Of a stretch of 34,266 bases of DNA, positions 6,155 through 29,709 are shown piece after piece. A program made the position numbers and the translations under genes. Every line of letters begins with the position of its first letter. The first letter of the stretch is position 1. The stretch is from Nitrososphaerales archaeon (lineage in GTDB: Archaea > Thermoproteota > Nitrososphaeria > Nitrososphaerales > Gagatemarchaeaceae). The notes under the pieces were generated by a model. That model was given only the letters and a program-made list of their open reading frames with translations, had not been told where the DNA came from and made no database searches. The stretch is from the NCBI GenBank assembly GCA_030038395.1, contig JASHOZ010000029.1, positions 1 through 34,266 on the forward strand, given 5' to 3'.

Positions 6155-7195
6155 TTAAGACATGACGCTGGCGATGTTCTTCACGAGAGGCCTTTCTATC
6201 AGGCCCCTCTCCGTCACTATCGCCGTCACGAGGTCTGGGGGAGTCATGTCGAAGGCTGGGTTCCCCACAGGGACCCCTTTGGGGGCCACCCTTCGCCCGC
6301 GAATCCTCACCACCTCGTCGAACCCTCTCTCTTCGATGGTCACTTCCGTGTGAGACCGCCCCAGGTCGAAGGTGGATCGGGGAGCAGCGGGGTAGAAGGG
6401 GATCCGATGCCTCTCGGCGAGAACCGCTTCCTGGTACGTCCCGATCTTGTTGAACACGTAGCCATCCTTAGTGATCCTGTCCGCCCCCACGAAGACCTTG
6501 TCGACCCTCCCCTTGCTCATCATGTACCCCACCGCAGTGTCCGGGATCACCCTGCAGTCTATCCCATCGGTCAGCAGCTCGAAGGCGGTCAGCCTTGCGC
6601 CCTGAAGCACTGGCCTCGTCTCGGGGACAAGCACCTTCACCATCTTCCCCTGCTCCACGGCCGCCCTCACGGCCCCGAGCGCCGTGCCATACCCGACGGT
6701 AGCCAGCGCCCCTGCGTTGCACTGCGTCAGTATCGTGTCTCCGTCGTCAATGAGCCCGGCCCCCGCCTCGCCGAGCCTGCGGTTGTTCTGCACGTCTTCA
6801 TCCTCCATCTTCCGCGCCTCCGCCACCGCCAGGCGCCTCGCTTCGTCCATCGTGCCGGCGGAGGCTGCCACGCTCATTACGCGGTCGATCCCCCAGAACA
6901 GGTTGACGGCAGTCGGACGCGTCGACCTCAGCAGGGCCGCCGCCCGCTCGAGCTCCCTCCTGAGCTCGCGTGCGTCGTGGGCCGAACTCCTTTCGGCTGC
7001 CAGCGCCAGTCCCATCGCTGCCGCCACTCCGATGGCAGGCGCCCCGCGGACGACAAGCGTCCTGATCGCCTCCGCGACTTCCTCAGGGCTGGAGAGGCGG
7101 ACGCGCCTCAGCCTCCCGGGGAGCTCGGTCTGGTCTATCATCGACACCGCGCCGTCCTCCCAGGTCACGGTCCGCTCGGTGAAGAAGCCCGTCAT
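6155..7195 (-). CDS. mtnA: S-methyl-5-thioribose-1-phosphate isomerase (MtnA/eIF2B-like)
   Basis: A 346-residue protein with all MtnA landmarks: VVRGAPAIGVAAAMG (about residues 48-62), TQCNAGALATVGYGTALG with the catalytic Cys159, PETRPVLQGARLTAFEL, and VFVGADRITKDG with the catalytic Asp239. The enzyme isomerises the aldose 5-methylthioribose-1-phosphate to the ketose in methionine salvage. In archaea, relatives also act on ribose-1,5-bisphosphate in nucleotide breakdown. The Cys/Asp pair and the motif order favour MtnA. The start ATG at 7195 is about 90 bp from the divergent endonuclease gene, so the two share a promoter region. No other methionine-salvage gene is in view. Confidence 0.9.
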   Translation of the reverse strand: MTGFFTERTVTWEDGAVSMIDQTELPGRLRRVRLSSPEEVAEAIRTLVVRGAPAIGVAAAMGLALAAERSSAHDARELRRELERAAALLRSTRPTAVNLFWGIDRVMSVAASAGTMDEARRLAVAEARKMEDEDVQNNRRLGEAGAGLIDDGDTILTQCNAGALATVGYGTALGAVRAAVEQGKMVKVLVPETRPVLQGARLTAFELLTDGIDCRVIPDTAVGYMMSKGRVDKVFVGADRITKDGYVFNKIGTYQEAVLAERHRIPFYPAAPRSTFDLGRSHTEVTIEERGFDEVVRIRGRRVAPKGVPVGNPAFDMTPPDLVTAIVTERGLIERPLVKNIASVMS

Positions 7196-7283
7196 CTCTC
7201 GGTCGTCAGGGGGGAGGTCGCTAAAGCGTTTCCGGAGGGGCGGCGTTGAACCTTCAAATAACGAGCGCGAAACGAGCGCCCAG

Positions 7284-7841
7284 TTGGCCGGGTTGACCGA
7301 AGAGCAGCGTCCTGAGGAGCAGTTCCAGCCGCTCGACGCGCTCTATGACGACGGCGTCGCAGTCGTGACGGACAAGGGGAGGTTCGACGCGCTTGAGGGC
7401 CTCGGCTACGGCACGAAGGAGGGCAAGTCGATATCGCTTCGCGACTTCGAGGCACTTTACCTCCTCTACGTGGGGAAGCTGGTGCTGAAGGACAGGTCGG
7501 GGGAGAAGTTCACGTTCGAGAAGCTCGCCGAGCTCACGCAGAAGAGGGCTAGGGACTCGTGGACGAAGTTCATGATCTACAGGGACCTTAGGAGCAGGGG
7601 GTACGTGGTGAGGGAGGGGTTCGGGTTCGGCACCGACCTCAGGGTCTACGAGAGGGGGGACTACCAGAAGAAGCCGGCGCAGTACGTCGTCTTCGCCCTC
7701 GACGAGGGGATTGAGAAGGGGATGGCAGACCTGCAGAAGTCCGTGAAGGAGATGGCAAGGATGGGGAAGGAGGCGATAATCGCTGTCATAGAGCGCCGGG
7801 GCGAGGTCATCTACTACAAGGTAAGCAAGGCGAGGTTCTGA
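7284..7841 (+). CDS. tRNA-splicing endonuclease subunit, EndA family, catalytic His absent
   Basis: A protein of about 185 residues from TTG 7284, chosen because a TATA-like TTCAAATAA lies about 27 bp upstream and no ATG exists at the N-terminus. The EndA fold is visible: an N-terminal domain ending LRDFEALYLLYVGKL, then IYRDLRSRGYVVREGFGFGTDLRVY and a C-terminal IIAVIERRGEVIYYKV. EndA cuts introns from pre-tRNA using a Tyr-His-Lys triad. Here Tyr122 and Lys162 fit, but the usual His-Ser-x-Tyr segment reads Pro-Ala-Gln-Tyr, so the histidine is missing. It may be the structural subunit of a heterotetrameric enzyme with a catalytic partner encoded elsewhere. It is followed four bases later by ubiA and then rfcL. 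Confidence 0.8.
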   Translation: MAGLTEEQRPEEQFQPLDALYDDGVAVVTDKGRFDALEGLGYGTKEGKSISLRDFEALYLLYVGKLVLKDRSGEKFTFEKLAELTQKRARDSWTKFMIYRDLRSRGYVVREGFGFGTDLRVYERGDYQKKPAQYVVFALDEGIEKGMADLQKSVKEMARMGKEAIIAVIERRGEVIYYKVSKARF

Positions 7842-17473: not shown

Positions 17474-18910
17474 TCAGTAGCGGCCCTTTCGGTTGATGCT
17501 GACGGCGGTCCTCAGCAGGTCGGCCCCACGCTTCGTCAGTTCATAGAAGATGCGTTCGCGCCCTTTGAACCTCGTGACGCCTGTCTCCCTGACGAGCCCC
17601 ATGTCTACAAGCTCTCCAAGGTGCTGGTACACACTCGCTGTCGACAGCTCCTTCCTCTCCGAGAGGAGCTTCCACAACTCGTAGCCGAAGCGTGGCTTCC
17701 CGGCGAGGGACTTCAGGATCAGGACCTTGGTGTCCCCCACCTGCATGCGTGCAACGAGATAGTCTTCGGGCGCGACTACCTGTCTTGCTGCCCTGGCTAT
17801 ACGCGAGATGGCCTTCGTGTCCTTCAGGCCGGCGCCCGTAATCACGCACACCACCGTTTCGTCCGCGTCCACGACTCGTTCGGACTTAGCCAGTCTCAGG
17901 GAGGCGACGACCGAGGCCGCGGCGGGCTCCGCGAATATCCCCTCTGTCCGCGCGAGCAGGCTCGTTGCCGCGATGGTGTCGGACGCGGTCGCCTCAATCC
18001 AGTCTCCCCCCGACGCCCTTACCGCCCTCCTGGCCTCCTCCCAGAGAATAGGCTCCGACTCCGCGAGCTCGGTGGCGAGGTCAGGCTCGTCACTCGAAGC
18101 GTCCCTTCGCCGAGGACTCCCCCGGCCTGCGCTCCCCCCGAACTGGACCCCCACGAGGCGGCAACCTGTTCCGTCGCAGAGTCCGGCGCTCCGCAGCTGC
18201 TCCAGGCCCCTCGAGAACATGCTTAGGTGCCCCCCTGTCCCGACCGGGACGAGGATCACGTCAGGGGACGCCCACTTGAGGTCCTGGACCACCTCGAAGC
18301 AAGTCGTCTTCTCGCCTTCCAGGATGAAGGGATTGCCGGCATTCACTGAGATCGCTCTCCCGCTCCCCTCACTGTCTGCAGCCCTTCTTTGCCTGGTCTC
18401 AATCCTGGCACCGAACGCAATCATCTGATACAGCTTCCCGCGGTCGACGGTAGGCTTCACTGTTATCTCCGAACGTATCCCGGCCTTCGCGCAATAGGCG
18501 GCGAGCGAGGCGCCGAGGTTCCCGGTTGTCGAGCACCGGCACTCCTCGACGCCCCTCTCCTTCGCGAGCGAGACGAGGACGGTGCACCCTCGATCGATGA
18601 ACGACCCGGTCGGGTTCCTGCTCTCGTCCTTGACGAAGAGCTTCGAAAGCCCGAGCTCGCCGCCCAGCCTTACGGCGCTGAGGAGAGGGGTCCCTCCCTC
18701 GCCGAGCGTCACCGGCTCACTCGCCCCGAGAGAGGTAATCAGGGCCTTGAATCTCCATACACCCGGCGGGAGGGCGTCGAAGGAAGAGCTTTCCAGCGAC
18801 CTGACCTTCGCTCCCGTCACGATTACAGGCGAACCGCAGGCGTCGCACGTAGGGTCGAGCGCGTCGCTCTCCAGTTCATGCGAGCATGACACGCACCTGA
18901 AAGAGCGCAT
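17474..18910 (-). CDS. Threonine synthase-like protein lacking the PLP lysine, fused to PadR-like winged helix
   Basis: A 478-residue fusion. Residues 1-30 hold a zinc-ribbon (C6, C9, C23, C26). Residues about 60-375 are the threonine synthase fold: EGGTPLL, KDESRNPTGSF, STTGNLGASLAAY, VPVGTGGHLS, EGIFAEPAAAS and ITGAGLKD. The PLP-binding lysine of the SFKDRG motif is Ile105 (codon ATC at 18596-18598), so the normal Schiff base cannot form. Residues about 388-465 form a winged helix (VLILKSLAGKPRFGYELWKLL, STASVYQHLGELVDMGLV), PadR/ArsR-like. I infer a non-catalytic sensor of a threonine-pathway metabolite or PLP that controls transcription, not an enzyme. Frame and the rest of the domain are intact, arguing against simple decay. 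Confidence 0.82.
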   Translation of the reverse strand: MRSFRCVSCSHELESDALDPTCDACGSPVIVTGAKVRSLESSSFDALPPGVWRFKALITSLGASEPVTLGEGGTPLLSAVRLGGELGLSKLFVKDESRNPTGSFIDRGCTVLVSLAKERGVEECRCSTTGNLGASLAAYCAKAGIRSEITVKPTVDRGKLYQMIAFGARIETRQRRAADSEGSGRAISVNAGNPFILEGEKTTCFEVVQDLKWASPDVILVPVGTGGHLSMFSRGLEQLRSAGLCDGTGCRLVGVQFGGSAGRGSPRRRDASSDEPDLATELAESEPILWEEARRAVRASGGDWIEATASDTIAATSLLARTEGIFAEPAAASVVASLRLAKSERVVDADETVVCVITGAGLKDTKAISRIARAARQVVAPEDYLVARMQVGDTKVLILKSLAGKPRFGYELWKLLSERKELSTASVYQHLGELVDMGLVRETGVTRFKGRERIFYELTKRGADLLRTAVSINRKGRY

Positions 18911-18967
18911 TCGAGTCCCCTCCAGCGAAGCGACATATAGGCTGCGACTTCTATATGCGAGGGACCA

Positions 18968-24428: not shown

Positions 24429-25649
24429 ATGAACAGTCGCGAGGCGGGGTGGATTGGTTACGCCAAGGGAGGGAACGGGAAGGTAGGCATAGCCGACCTG
24501 GGAGACAGGATACTGTTCCTGGGCAGAGGGGCAGGGGAGCTCGCCAGTCTCTTCTGTTTCGCGAACGCGGAGGCGGGCGCCAAGACGCTCGTCCTGGACC
24601 TAGACGACTCGGTCTCGGCCGAAGTGCATGGATACTTCCAAGTCGTCGACTACAGGTCGCTCCTCTATGACGCGTTCAAAATAGAGGGCGAGGACGCGTT
24701 CCACGCACAGCTGATTTCGGCGGCCTACGCCGCCGCGCTCGGGCTCTCGACCGAAGACGAGGCCGTGCTGAGCTCAGCACTTCACGCCATGTCCGCCCAA
24801 GAGGACATGGCGACGCCCTCGTCCCTGTTCAACTCTCTAGGGGGCGTGGAAGGGTTCAGGGGATTCTACGTGGACAGGCTCAGAGGTAGAATCGGGGCGC
24901 TCAGGATGATGGAGGCCACGCGGGACCGCGTGCTTGCGACGCTTCTGGAGGGTGGCTGCATCGTAAGGTTCGGGGTCGCACCTTATCCTCTCGCAGCCGA
25001 GCTAGCCACCGCGCTCGTGATCGCCAAGCTGCTCGCGCTCCTGCGGTCCTCGAGCGCGTCCCCCGACGCGCTATTGGTGACCGGGGCGCACAGGCTCTTC
25101 AGAAGCGCCGACCGCATGCGGCCCACCACCAGGCTGCTGACCCACCTCTTGGATGCGCGTCTGAGTCTGGCCTTGGCGTCGCCACTCCCCGCGCTCGTCG
25201 ACGAGGCGCTTTCCGCGTCTATGGTCGTCCGTGTCTATTCGAGCGAGGCGTGGAACTCGGTCCGGAGGGCGGGAGACGCCGCCCCCGCGTCGAGGTCGTA
25301 CGTCATCTGCGACGACAGGTCCTCCACGTCAAACGCGTTCTTCCCAAGATTCGTCAGGGCGACGCCCCGCGCCCGAGATGAGGGCCTCCTGTCAGCTGCG
25401 ACCACAATCCCTCGGCTCACAAGTGCGATACTAGGCGAGGTCGCTAGATTCTCCACCCCTACGAGGCAGTCCATGGTCGCGTACCTGTCTCCCCAGTTCT
25501 TGCCAACGGACGTGGCGGCAGAAATCGACAGGCTCCTGGCCGAGGGATTTCTGGTCGAGGAGCTGCGCGGGTCTGAGAGCGGCTCCCGCGTCTTCGCGTA
25601 TGCGCTGACCGGGAAGGGGAGGCATCTCGCAGAGGAGCTGGGTGCGTGA
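24429..25649 (+). CDS. Degenerate HerA/VirB4-like ATPase with C-terminal winged helix
   Basis: A 406-residue protein. After strand RILFLGRG comes AGELAS (32-40), placed like a P-loop but without the Lys-Ser/Thr pair. Next is KTLVLDLDDS, a helical region, GGCIVRFG, and PDALLVTGAHRLF (212-224) in the place of a Walker B. This order resembles HerA/FtsK/VirB4 ATPases, but both nucleotide motifs are eroded, so it is probably inactive as an ATPase. Residues about 345-405 form a winged helix (YLSPQFLPTDVAAEIDRLLAEGFLVEEL, YALTGKGRHL). The start has a TATA-like box 27 bp upstream. Its TGA overlaps the next ATG by one base. The HerA likeness is my reading, not a search result. Confidence 0.5.
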   Translation: MNSREAGWIGYAKGGNGKVGIADLGDRILFLGRGAGELASLFCFANAEAGAKTLVLDLDDSVSAEVHGYFQVVDYRSLLYDAFKIEGEDAFHAQLISAAYAAALGLSTEDEAVLSSALHAMSAQEDMATPSSLFNSLGGVEGFRGFYVDRLRGRIGALRMMEATRDRVLATLLEGGCIVRFGVAPYPLAAELATALVIAKLLALLRSSSASPDALLVTGAHRLFRSADRMRPTTRLLTHLLDARLSLALASPLPALVDEALSASMVVRVYSSEAWNSVRRAGDAAPASRSYVICDDRSSTSNAFFPRFVRATPRARDEGLLSAATTIPRLTSAILGEVARFSTPTRQSMVAYLSPQFLPTDVAAEIDRLLAEGFLVEELRGSESGSRVFAYALTGKGRHLAEELGA

Positions 25650-26656
25650 TGGAGCACCTGCCTACCGGGTGTGGCGCCGTCGACTCCCTCACCGACGGCG
25701 GCCTGGCGGCCGGGACGGTCACGCAGATATTCGGAGAGAAGGCGCTCGGAAAGAGCATAATCTCCTTCCAGGCCGCCTCCGCGACCGCATCCTCCGGCGG
25801 GAGCGCCGTCATACTCGACACGGAACAGTCGTACTGCAGCTACCTGATCCCGTATTGGAAGGACAGGATGGCGAAGCGGTTCGGGAAGGACTTCCGCCTC
25901 GCGGAGCTCAGCCCTGAAAGGGCGCCACGGGTCTCGCCAAAGAGGAAGCCTGTCACCAAAGGCCAGATTATCACCGCGGTCGATGCCGCGCTCGCACCCC
26001 TGGGCATAACGTACACCGACCTGCACCTGGGGGCGGTCGCGGACCTGCTGTCCCCCGACCTGCGGCTCGAGGGACTCCCCAAGGAGCCTTCTGTGGCCGT
26101 TCTCCAGGCTCCTGACGTTGTAGAGCTACTCAATCTGCACGGCATCGACGCGACGAAGGAGGTGTCCAGCGGCGGGAGGGTCGAGCTCAGGCTCCGCCAG
26201 ACGCCGGCATACAACTCCCCTCTGCGGCAGATCGTGCAGGAGACTGGGGCCAGGCTCGTCGTCTACGACTCCGTCTCTGCCCCGTTCAAGTCGTCATTTC
26301 CTAGCACCCAGGACCTCCCCGCGCGAAGCTCCGGGCTGGCGATGATGCTGTCGCACGCGCAGAGGCTCTGCATCGAGTTCGGGATAGCCGTCTTGCTGAT
26401 CAGCCACACCTCGATCGACCCCATCAACCCCTGGGACAGGACCCCGTACGGTGGCGTCATCCTCGGGCATGACTCGAAATTCTCCCTCGAACTGACGAAG
26501 GCCACCGCGTCCAGGAACAAGGAAGGCGGCCCGGAGGCCGTCAACCCCGAACTGAAGGCTTCAAGCACCAGGGCGTTCTGGGCCGCGCGCCACCCCGCGA
26601 TGGAAGAGTACACGAGGTTCGCCTATGCGCGAATCGACGAAGGGGGGTTCCACTGA
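25649..26656 (+). CDS. RadA/RecA-superfamily ATPase with large insertion
   Basis: A 335-residue protein that begins LPTGCGAVDSLTDGGLAAGTVTQIFGE like RadA or KaiC. It has an intact Walker A GEKALGKS (29-36), a strand AVILDTEQSY (53-62) with the usual Glu, Walker B LVVYDS (203-208), and a RadA-like end LLISHTS...YGGVILGHDSKFSLEL. Residues about 80-190 are an insertion absent from RadA. The protein lacks the N-terminal helix-hairpin-helix DNA-binding domain of archaeal RadA. It is therefore a paralogue, not the recombinase itself. It is joined by one-base stop/start overlaps to both neighbours, implying a stoichiometric complex. Confidence 0.72.
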   Translation: MEHLPTGCGAVDSLTDGGLAAGTVTQIFGEKALGKSIISFQAASATASSGGSAVILDTEQSYCSYLIPYWKDRMAKRFGKDFRLAELSPERAPRVSPKRKPVTKGQIITAVDAALAPLGITYTDLHLGAVADLLSPDLRLEGLPKEPSVAVLQAPDVVELLNLHGIDATKEVSSGGRVELRLRQTPAYNSPLRQIVQETGARLVVYDSVSAPFKSSFPSTQDLPARSSGLAMMLSHAQRLCIEFGIAVLLISHTSIDPINPWDRTPYGGVILGHDSKFSLELTKATASRNKEGGPEAVNPELKASSTRAFWAARHPAMEEYTRFAYARIDEGGFH

Positions 26657-28035: not shown

Positions 28036-29709
28036 CTAGGCGCCCGTTATCGGCTGGATGGGGAGCGGTTCGCCCTGCTCTCCCGCCGAGCATCCGCAGC
28101 CGGCCACATGGCCGCCGCGCCTGAGCGTCCCCCTGTAGAGCCCGTCCTCGAGCTTCTTGTGGTTCTTCGCCTCCCACTCCTCTATCGGCATCCCGTACTT
28201 CTGCTGGATTCTGTCCCTGTACCACTCCGGTATAACGTTGAAGGAGCAGAAGGGTATGATCCTGAGGTCGGGCGTCAGGTAGTGGATGTCGCACCTCTGG
28301 AGGCGCTCCTCGTCCTGGTTGTACTTGTCCTGGAAGTGCATCATGCCGAGGAACATGCTCTTGAGGTGGAACTGGCCGATCGATGAGTAGTCGTGCTTGA
28401 CGAGGGCGTCAGTCAGCAGCTTTGCGAAGCTGAGGCTCTTGGGCTGCTTCTCCTTGTCTACGAATGAAGAGATCCTTGTCAGGACCTTCGCGGCCACCAC
28501 GTAGCGGTTCGCTCCCGAGTAGATTTCCTCCGACTTCTCCTCCAGGTACTCGATCATGCCGGGGATATCGACGAACTCCGGCAGAGGGACCAGTCGCCTC
28601 CTGTCCGCGTCATTGAACACATAGGTCCCCGCTCCGCACGCGAAGTGTATCGAAAGCTCGTACTGCTCCTTCTTTGTGAACGCCTCTATGAAGCCTGTCA
28701 CCGGGGAGCACGAGGGGACTGGGAACCAGCCGTCCTTCGGAATCTCGCCGTTAGTCTGTTCCTCGATCCTCTCGATGCAGTCCGGAATCGTGATGCGGTA
28801 CTTCGCCCTCTCGGTCTTCGTAAGCCTCCCAGTCAGCGAGACGGGCTGGAAGTTGACTGCGTGGACGGTGTCGATGTTGCGCTGCCCGAAGCGGATTATG
28901 CTCCCCAGCTCATGGTCGTTTATCGACTTTATGACCGTCGGGACCAGCACGACGCCGATCCCCTGCCTGCGGCACGCGTCGATCGCGTATGGCGCCTCCC
29001 AGTGGTTCTTCGGGTTCGTCTTCGGCGTGGTGCCGTCGAAGCTCATGTAGAGGTTCGACACCCCCGCGTCCTTCAGCCTCTTCGCGAGAGCCGGTTCGAG
29101 CGCCAGGTTGATGCCGTTCGTGTTGAGCTGGATGTGGTCGACCCCCTCCTCCTTCAGTATCCTTATGATGGTCGGGAGGTCTTCCCTGATCGTCGGCTCC
29201 CCTCCTGTGATCTGGACCGAGTTCCCTGCGACGGGCCTCTCCGCCTTCAGTGAGCGGCCCATCTCACGGATCTGGTCGAGCGTCGGCTCGTAGACGTAGG
29301 CGCCCTCGAGCCCCTTCTTGACGTAGAAGAAGCAGTACCAGCACGTCAGGTCGCACCTGTTCGTCACTATGATGTTCGAGAGCCCCGTGTGCGACAGGTG
29401 GTTCGAACACAGGCCGCAGTTCGCGGGACACGAGCAGACGTCGAGCGGTACGTTCGCCGCATGGGTCCCCTTCCCGTCTTTCCAATAGCGCGAGAACTTG
29501 CTGTACATTTCGTAAGAGCCGAAGTAGAGCTCCTCCGTCTCCCCGTGCTCCGGGCAGGTCTTCGTCATCCAGACCTTGTTGTCGCGCTCGAAGACGATCG
29601 CCGGGAGAATGCGGTTGCAGTCCGGGCAGATCGACTGGGTCTGGCGGATGAAGTTCCCCTTGGAACTCTCCTTCTTCAGTTCAAGGCTTACGTCAGCGAT
29701 CTGGGCCAA
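28036..29709 (-). CDS. Tes-like radical SAM enzyme (tetraether lipid synthase family)
   Basis: A 557-residue radical SAM protein. N-terminal Cys pairs (C28, C31, C52) look like a metal-binding ribbon; a second cluster region CSCPANCGLC (92-101) precedes the radical SAM triad C119-x3-C123-x2-C126 in NRCDLTCWYCFFY. ITGGEPT (about 166-172) binds SAM, LNTNG and SFDG follow, and a late GCGCS motif lies near residue 540. Length and cysteine arrangement fit the Tes/GDGT-MAS group, which joins two archaeol tails into the membrane-spanning tetraether lipid. Start is TTG 29709 with TATA CTTATATCC (29742-29750). An 11-bp inverted repeat and a TrmB-type gene lie divergently upstream, suggesting specific control. 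Confidence 0.82.
   Translation of the reverse strand: MAQIADVSLELKKESSKGNFIRQTQSICPDCNRILPAIVFERDNKVWMTKTCPEHGETEELYFGSYEMYSKFSRYWKDGKGTHAANVPLDVCSCPANCGLCSNHLSHTGLSNIIVTNRCDLTCWYCFFYVKKGLEGAYVYEPTLDQIREMGRSLKAERPVAGNSVQITGGEPTIREDLPTIIRILKEEGVDHIQLNTNGINLALEPALAKRLKDAGVSNLYMSFDGTTPKTNPKNHWEAPYAIDACRRQGIGVVLVPTVIKSINDHELGSIIRFGQRNIDTVHAVNFQPVSLTGRLTKTERAKYRITIPDCIERIEEQTNGEIPKDGWFPVPSCSPVTGFIEAFTKKEQYELSIHFACGAGTYVFNDADRRRLVPLPEFVDIPGMIEYLEEKSEEIYSGANRYVVAAKVLTRISSFVDKEKQPKSLSFAKLLTDALVKHDYSSIGQFHLKSMFLGMMHFQDKYNQDEERLQRCDIHYLTPDLRIIPFCSFNVIPEWYRDRIQQKYGMPIEEWEAKNHKKLEDGLYRGTLRRGGHVAGCGCSAGEQGEPLPIQPITGA

Follow-up and report, generated by a model that had tools for sequence, protein, structure and literature searches.

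A threonine synthase-like protein without the PLP lysine, fused to a winged helix, as a proposed PLP-sensing vitamin B6 regulator in Archaea

Results

An intact fused gene in the window

The window, that is, the whole stretch of 34,266 bp analyzed here, belongs to a genome (G000) assembled into 1.49 Mb and 69 contigs with 91% completeness, whose closest named relatives in a scan of named genomes were Nitrososphaerales and Thaumarchaeota assemblies. On the reverse strand, at 17474..18910, we found an open reading frame (ORF) for a protein of 478 amino acids, which starts with ATG and contains no internal stops. It resembles threonine synthase, lacks the PLP lysine, and ends in a winged helix, and we propose it to be a PLP-sensing regulator of vitamin B6. 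The gene for a eukaryote-type topoisomerase IB ends 57 bp upstream on the same strand. Only one full-length match to the protein was found in G000, namely the gene itself.

At the N-terminus, a zinc ribbon (18836..18895, reverse strand), also seen in the original prediction, carries Cys 6, 9, 22, and 25, which are kept at 90% or more in a 55-row alignment. The PALP domain, characteristic of fold type II PLP enzymes, covers residues 67–359 (17834..18712, reverse strand) with 187.6 bits against the Pfam cut-off of 35. Residues 103–107 read SFIDR; the codon at 18596..18598 (reverse strand) is ATC, which confirmed that Ile105 replaces the expected Schiff-base lysine. A PadR/ArsR-like winged helix had been predicted at residues 388–465. 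Pfam bore out the PadR part, placing a PadR-type winged helix (PF03551) at residues 398–466 (17513..17719, reverse strand; 41.9 bits, cut-off 27), whereas HTH_5/ArsR reached only 19.6 bits, under its cut-off of 22. The secondary structure of the model showed a further C-terminal helix after the winged helix, extending to about residue 476.

The window protein has the fold type II fold of threonine synthase (EC 4.2.3.1), and its scores were under the cut-offs of the curated threonine synthase models (TIGR00260, 136.2 versus 167.1 bits; NF004170, 239.9 versus 421 bits). Residues 4–467 aligned with positions 2–439 of NF004170, indicating the same architecture over the full length. When 250 genomes of the phylum were scanned with NF004170, six exceeded the cut-off, and the best 20 loci (L207–L226) all showed Arg105 together with the winged helix. 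Because these top loci have Arg at the PLP-lysine position, the NCBIfam equivalog NF004170/PRK05638, named threonine synthase, probably describes the Lys-less family under a wrong name. As had been anticipated, a separate Lys-bearing threonine synthase is encoded in G000 (L040; NF006050, 497.9 bits, cut-off 303).

Four other features of the window were observed. A truncated end of another PALP-family gene lies at the contig start (2–139; 35 bits), and a tRNA-intron endonuclease EndA gene is found at 6684–7841, where the best match covers residues 227–380 of a 385-residue ORF and leaves a long N-terminal stretch uncovered. A RadA/RadB-like ATPase is encoded at 25646–26656, with family matches at residues 2–60 and 194–288, a pattern that would fit a long insertion or a diverged segment between the two; the tetraether lipid synthase Tes (NF045702, 695 bits) is encoded at 28036–29709.

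Conserved loss of Lys105 and Arg196 in the fused family

Residue 105 was read in 20 full-length fused genes, including that of the window, from a first set of 61 genomes (G000 and 60 relatives). It was Ile in 7, Met in 8, Leu in 1, Val in 2, Thr in 2, and Lys in none. Named genomes were then covered by the best 80 of 341 loci, among which fused loci were titled Nitrososphaeria/Thaumarchaeota, Bathyarchaeota, Methanomethylicota, Culexmicrobium, Brockarchaeota, Borrarchaeum, and Baldrarchaeum; we take the last two to be Asgard archaea. Taken together, the sequences gave 141 rows, of which 136 differ from one another; the winged helix is present in 109 rows, and 32 are unfused. Since the residue counts cover the best 30, 80, 30, and 20 loci of successive scans, they describe the best matches and not all members. 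In the fused rows, residue 105 was Arg in 56, Ile in 16, Leu in 11, Met in 10, Val in 9, Lys in 3, Thr in 2, and Phe in 2, while Lys was present in all 32 unfused rows. The expectation that a residue other than Lys is conserved in fused homologues was therefore upheld, both in the close relatives (20/20) and in the wider set (106/109). A damaged gene copy was considered and rejected, as the absence of Lys is conserved across several archaeal phyla.

Lysine had been named as the sole catalytic loss. Its loss was confirmed, but it is not the sole one: the Arg at position 196 of the NPxRxEG motif, which we take to contact the phosphate of the substrate as in Thermus threonine synthase, was found in 32/32 unfused rows and 0/109 fused rows (Ile196 in the window protein), and the glycine loop GNAGN of unfused rows is mostly GxGG(T/H/L) in fused rows. 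Compared with threonine synthase ThrC of Arabidopsis, Mycobacterium, Bacillus, and Thermus, a fold type II PLP enzyme, the window protein thus differs by the absence of the Schiff-base lysine and of Arg196, by the altered glycine loop, and by the added winged helix. Other residues of the PLP pocket are retained in the fused rows: Asn131 in 109/109 and Thr358 in 104/109, which presumably correspond to the threonine synthase residues holding the PLP ring, and Gly224 and Gly226 in 109/109. Lys 94, 159, 201, and 363 are invariant in the 109 fused rows. The same lysines occur in the unfused Lys105 enzymes (32/32, 31/32, 32/32, and 30/32, respectively, the last with two rows gapped), so no lysine is specific to the fused group, and a substitute PLP lysine was rejected.

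A tree was calculated from the 141 rows after duplicate loci on a hand-made list and cores shorter than 230 residues were dropped; a few near-copies of one genome remain. On this tree, obtained by a quick search with SH-aLRT support only and several long branches, the fusion required one change and the Lys/not-Lys state two. By this tree, the fusion arose once, and it is found in Nitrososphaeria, Bathyarchaeia, and other archaea. Three Lys-bearing fused rows (L136, L138, and L139), all from Bathyarchaeota, nest in the Arg105 clade and are also without Arg196. Fused homologues with Lys had been proposed as the sign of a damaged gene; such homologues do exist, namely these 3 of the 109 rows. Their Lys may mean that a sensor has regained a PLP aldimine.

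A palindrome upstream of the regulator gene

Upstream regions of the regulator genes share the consensus GAYATATARGTT-NN-AACYTATATRTC. The window contains a putative 26-bp palindromic operator of this type at 18932..18957 (no strand assigned), which agrees at 20 of 24 consensus positions and is located upstream of the gene, separated from the ATG by 21 bp. Despite this agreement with a degenerate consensus, the site is a poor inverted repeat, with arms complementary at 6/12 positions; the 15 training sites averaged 8.7 of 12, and shuffled ones 3.7. We took 73 loci, 72 of which had enough upstream sequence to score. A score of at least 19/24 was reached by 22/72 loci, corresponding to 22/34 with a hydrophobic residue or Thr at position 105, 0/35 with Arg105, and 0/3 with Lys105, and by 5/1460 random 200-nt stretches, some of which may overlap true sites. 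Upstream scores below 18/24 were obtained for 11/34 hydrophobic/Thr loci. The palindrome was not found at Arg105 loci or fused Lys loci, where 0/35 and 0/3 reached 18/24. The core RGTTNNAACY was likewise seen in 0/35 Arg105 loci; this is a blunt test, which also gave 0/17 in the readable hydrophobic subset. The regulon of the Arg105 clade is thus known from gene neighbourhood alone.

The palindrome is AT-rich and contains a TATA-like sequence. Part of its conservation may therefore reflect the basal promoter, and some promoter content cannot be separated from the palindrome signal. A pair of divergent TATA boxes was considered and is disfavoured, because the palindrome persists where the upstream gene is codirectional (in the window and at pdxS in G000) and was not found in 235 of 243 pdxS-containing genomes under stricter filters, with which weak sites may be lost. 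At the level of sequence, a conserved palindrome, the candidate operator of this PadR-type protein, lies both upstream of the regulator and at its regulon.

Sites at pdxST and at the S component

R1, a sequence-only model of the palindrome, was run over 20 whole genomes, comprising 16 with the regulator gene and 4 congeners without it. A site was found in 16/16 genomes with the gene, mostly by construction, as 15 of the 16 had given training sites; we accordingly set aside the Fisher test of 16/16 versus 0/4 as evidence. No R1 site at E up to 1 was found in the four congeners. R1 marked two places in G000, namely the regulator gene itself and G000:C4:39129-39154, which is 20 bp upstream of the pdxS ATG, with pdxT next (NCBIfam PdxS, 447 bits; PdxT, 184.5 bits). 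Away from the regulator, all five places at E up to 0.02 precede either pdxST (G000, G033, G039, and G042) or the S component with the AIRS-like gene (G031); R1 had not been trained on any of the five. At the four pdxS genes, the site ends about 20–30 bp from the start codon. A weaker match in G042 (C2:413464, E 0.51) is just upstream of the S component of that genome (C2:412714-413430).

Genomes outside the training set also carried the site, at the gene in G072, G076, G088, and G091 and at the S component in G056; a further model site in the class sample is at G088:C12:4650. In G011, G076, G088, and G091, the site occupies the region between the gene and a divergently oriented pdxST. In Borrarchaeum, the gene and pdxST are divergent, and in Baldrarchaeum, pdxST follows the gene; the palindrome upstream of each gene scored 20 or 19/24. 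The class sample consisted of 300 genomes and was searched with stricter filters. A site at E up to 0.02 was found in 23/300 genomes, where about six are expected by chance, and pdxS in 243/300. Site and pdxS occurred together in eight, seven of which have the regulator; the site of the eighth (G203, E 0.014) is of about chance quality. Under the same filters and threshold, no site was found in G061, G064, G071, G093, G094, G097, and G103 among the genomes whose fused gene was read. The sites of G062 and G065 precede ABC-transporter-like ORFs and that of G203 nothing recognisable, and none of these could be linked to B6 genes.

In G012, G015, and G030, a site was seen with an amino-acid permease (PF13520) divergent from the regulator gene. 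Downstream of the site in G101, G107, and G113 is an ORF for a membrane protein, that of G101 matching PF13520; Pfam was applied to one member of each permease group. In three genomes of another family (L194, L197, and L198, about position 1501), a permease-like gene, assigned to PF13520 in L194, follows the palindrome and sits downstream of an ORF resembling cysteinyl-tRNA synthetase by eye. This gene is possibly a B6 permease.

Gene neighbourhood and B6 supply

Synteny was counted in 56 named fused loci, leaving out three duplicate and seven unfused loci of L074–L139. An ECF S component (PF07155) was in the stretch around the gene in 38, an AIRS-like gene in 23, pdxS in 2, and a Lys-bearing ThrC in 7, and 15/56 had no S component, AIRS-like gene, or pdxS. 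Among 19 Nitrososphaeria loci, the S component was found in 11, the AIRS-like gene in 14, pdxS in 1, and ThrC in none, with three loci lacking the S component, AIRS-like gene, and pdxS. Both the S component and the AIRS-like gene are absent from the window. The ThrC-adjoining loci, six titled Bathyarchaeota and one uncultured archaeon, all fall in one 10-row clade (SH-aLRT 98). In three loci, ThiN genes are close to the regulator gene; the product is a ThiD-ThiN protein in L062 and a protein with a ThiN domain in the other two, L055 and L060.

The presence of B6 genes was then compared across genomes. The 21 Nitrososphaeria genomes with the gene contained pdxS in 5 and the S component in 15. 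Two of the 21 had pdxS without the S component (G000 and G011), and four had neither (G012, G014, G015, and G030); in three of these four (G012, G015, and G030), the permease adjoins the gene, and the fourth, G014, has a completeness of 72%. In the Arg105 clade, 20/20 genomes had the S component, and 16/20 had no pdxS above the cut-off (2 of the 16 are less than 90% complete). Ten relatives taken as lacking the gene, among which G029 has fragmentary matches, showed pdxS in none and the S component in two.

The AIRS-like protein belongs to the PurM/ThiL/HypE superfamily and is distantly related to ThiL. Its genes lie by the regulator and S component at, for example, L046:9963-10970, L058:3580-4602, and L093:5352-6359; the two that were scanned were under every NCBIfam cut-off. 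The Phos_pyr_kin family (PdxK/ThiD) exceeded its cut-off in 9/23 genomes and gave a full strong match (>300 bits) in 4. Because few genomes have such a match, we guess by exclusion that the AIRS-like protein is a candidate B6 salvage kinase. A thiamine regulator had been suspected from the ThiN/ThiD neighbours and the AIRS-like partner, and this candidate was set back once the extra sites proved to be at pdxST.

Discussion

Our computation revealed a family in which a threonine synthase-like domain without its Lys and Arg was joined once to a winged helix, together with an operator and a regulon in the clade of the window, the regulon being drawn from comparative genomics. The original prediction of a pseudoenzyme reused as a DNA-binding sensor gained support from the single-origin fusion, the conserved loss of Lys and Arg, the ThrC elsewhere in the genome, and the upstream palindrome. 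It left the ligand among homoserine phosphate, threonine, and PLP; the evidence favours PLP over the other two because the palindrome precedes pdxST and the ECF S component and because Arg196 is lost. We thus consider it likely that this catalytically dead threonine synthase senses PLP and represses both the synthesis and the uptake of vitamin B6.

The proposed mechanism would be as follows. The PALP domain keeps the PLP-pocket residues Asn131 and Thr358 and a glycine loop; without Lys105 and Arg196, it should form no internal aldimine and should be unable to bind O-phosphohomoserine in the manner of the enzyme. The old cofactor site may hold PLP or a different phosphorylated B6 vitamer non-covalently, and this ligand would favour DNA binding, such that the ligand-bound protein, probably a dimer, grips the 26-bp palindrome via its winged helices. 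As the palindrome has TATA-like stretches close to start codons, binding should block TBP and with it transcription. When PLP is plentiful, the regulator gene itself and pdxS-pdxT, for PLP synthesis, would be repressed. In other genomes, repression would apply to the ECF S component, a proposed B6 uptake protein, to the AIRS-like protein, and in places to the amino-acid-type permease. We infer the same role for the Arg105 clade.

Such site placement suits repression in archaea, and the distance of about 20–30 bp to four pdxS start codons, with the TATA-like content, speaks against the main variant of our reading. There, the ligand-free protein would activate pdxST and the uptake genes, with PLP as anti-activator, much as is described for bacterial PdxR (PMC5320631); we give this variant a small but real chance. 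A regulator of the threonine pathway, which would sense threonine or O-phosphohomoserine and control thrC, could be expected from the fold and from an origin in threonine synthase, and a Lys-bearing ThrC is indeed beside the gene in seven of the 56 named loci. However, those seven are confined to the single 10-row clade, the presumed phosphate contact Arg196 is missing from every fused row, and the five strong sites away from the regulator lie by pdxST or the S-component cassette, which makes this explanation improbable.

We judge it similarly improbable that the same B6 genes are controlled through HMP phosphate, a PLP look-alike from thiamine synthesis, thereby linking B6 and thiamine supply. 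The ThiN and ThiD-ThiN proteins close to the gene and the distant relationship of the AIRS-like partner to ThiL would suit such a ligand, but they concern three loci only in the former case, and no thiamine gene follows a strong extra site, all of which are in front of pdxST or the S component. Least credible is an active enzyme merely fused to a DNA-binding domain, working with another PLP lysine or by a lysine-free reaction. The four invariant lysines of the fused rows would be its candidates; since they are equally conserved in the unfused Lys105 enzymes, they provide no new substitute, and Arg196 is lost as well.

Enzyme-derived vitamin regulators are already known. According to PMC5320631, bacterial PdxR controls pdxST, pdxK, and pdxU, apo-PdxR activates pdxST and PLP counteracts this, pdxST adjoins the regulator across a common intergenic region in several bacteria, and MocR regulators are absent from Archaea. 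MocR proteins are described there and in PMC4944035 as carrying a GntR winged helix at the N-terminus, joined to an aminotransferase domain of fold type I. PMC9997740 states that Archaea harbour the PdxS/PdxT pathway only and that B6 transporters are still to be identified in many organisms. Like MocR/PdxR, the protein studied here joins a proposed PLP-binding domain derived from an enzyme to a winged helix, and it shares, judging from sequence only, a B6 regulon with the site before pdxST (G000, G033, G039, and G042) and before the S component (G031 and G056), whose substrate would be a B6 vitamer. Unlike them, it is a fold type II PALP protein with a C-terminal PadR winged helix and has lost the PLP lysine; what is new is this other fold with the lysine lost. 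It is best read as an archaeal counterpart that would parallel bacterial PdxR in function. ThiR, the archaeal thiamine regulator consisting of an HTH and a ThiN domain, is likewise a transcription factor of Archaea that derives from a domain of a biosynthetic enzyme, although the domains are unrelated and the vitamin is different. The open-access papers searched contained no report of the Lys-less fused family.

We also put forward, as a tentative and rather less secure view, a deep archaeal family of dead threonine synthases, spanning Thermoproteota and Asgard archaea, that senses PLP non-covalently and would be the first B6 regulator described in Archaea. Its unrecognised partners would be a B6-specific ECF S component and the AIRS-like protein, the latter as a possible missing B6-vitamer kinase of auxotrophs without pdxST.

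Archaea, where MocR/PdxR is reported absent, gain from these results a candidate regulator of vitamin B6 that was assembled independently on another fold, and a sharp prediction is made, namely PLP binding without a Schiff base. NF004170, probably misnamed, would mislead reconstructions of the threonine pathway. Furthermore, candidates can now be named for two holes in the B6 metabolism of archaea without pdxST, the transporter and the salvage kinase.
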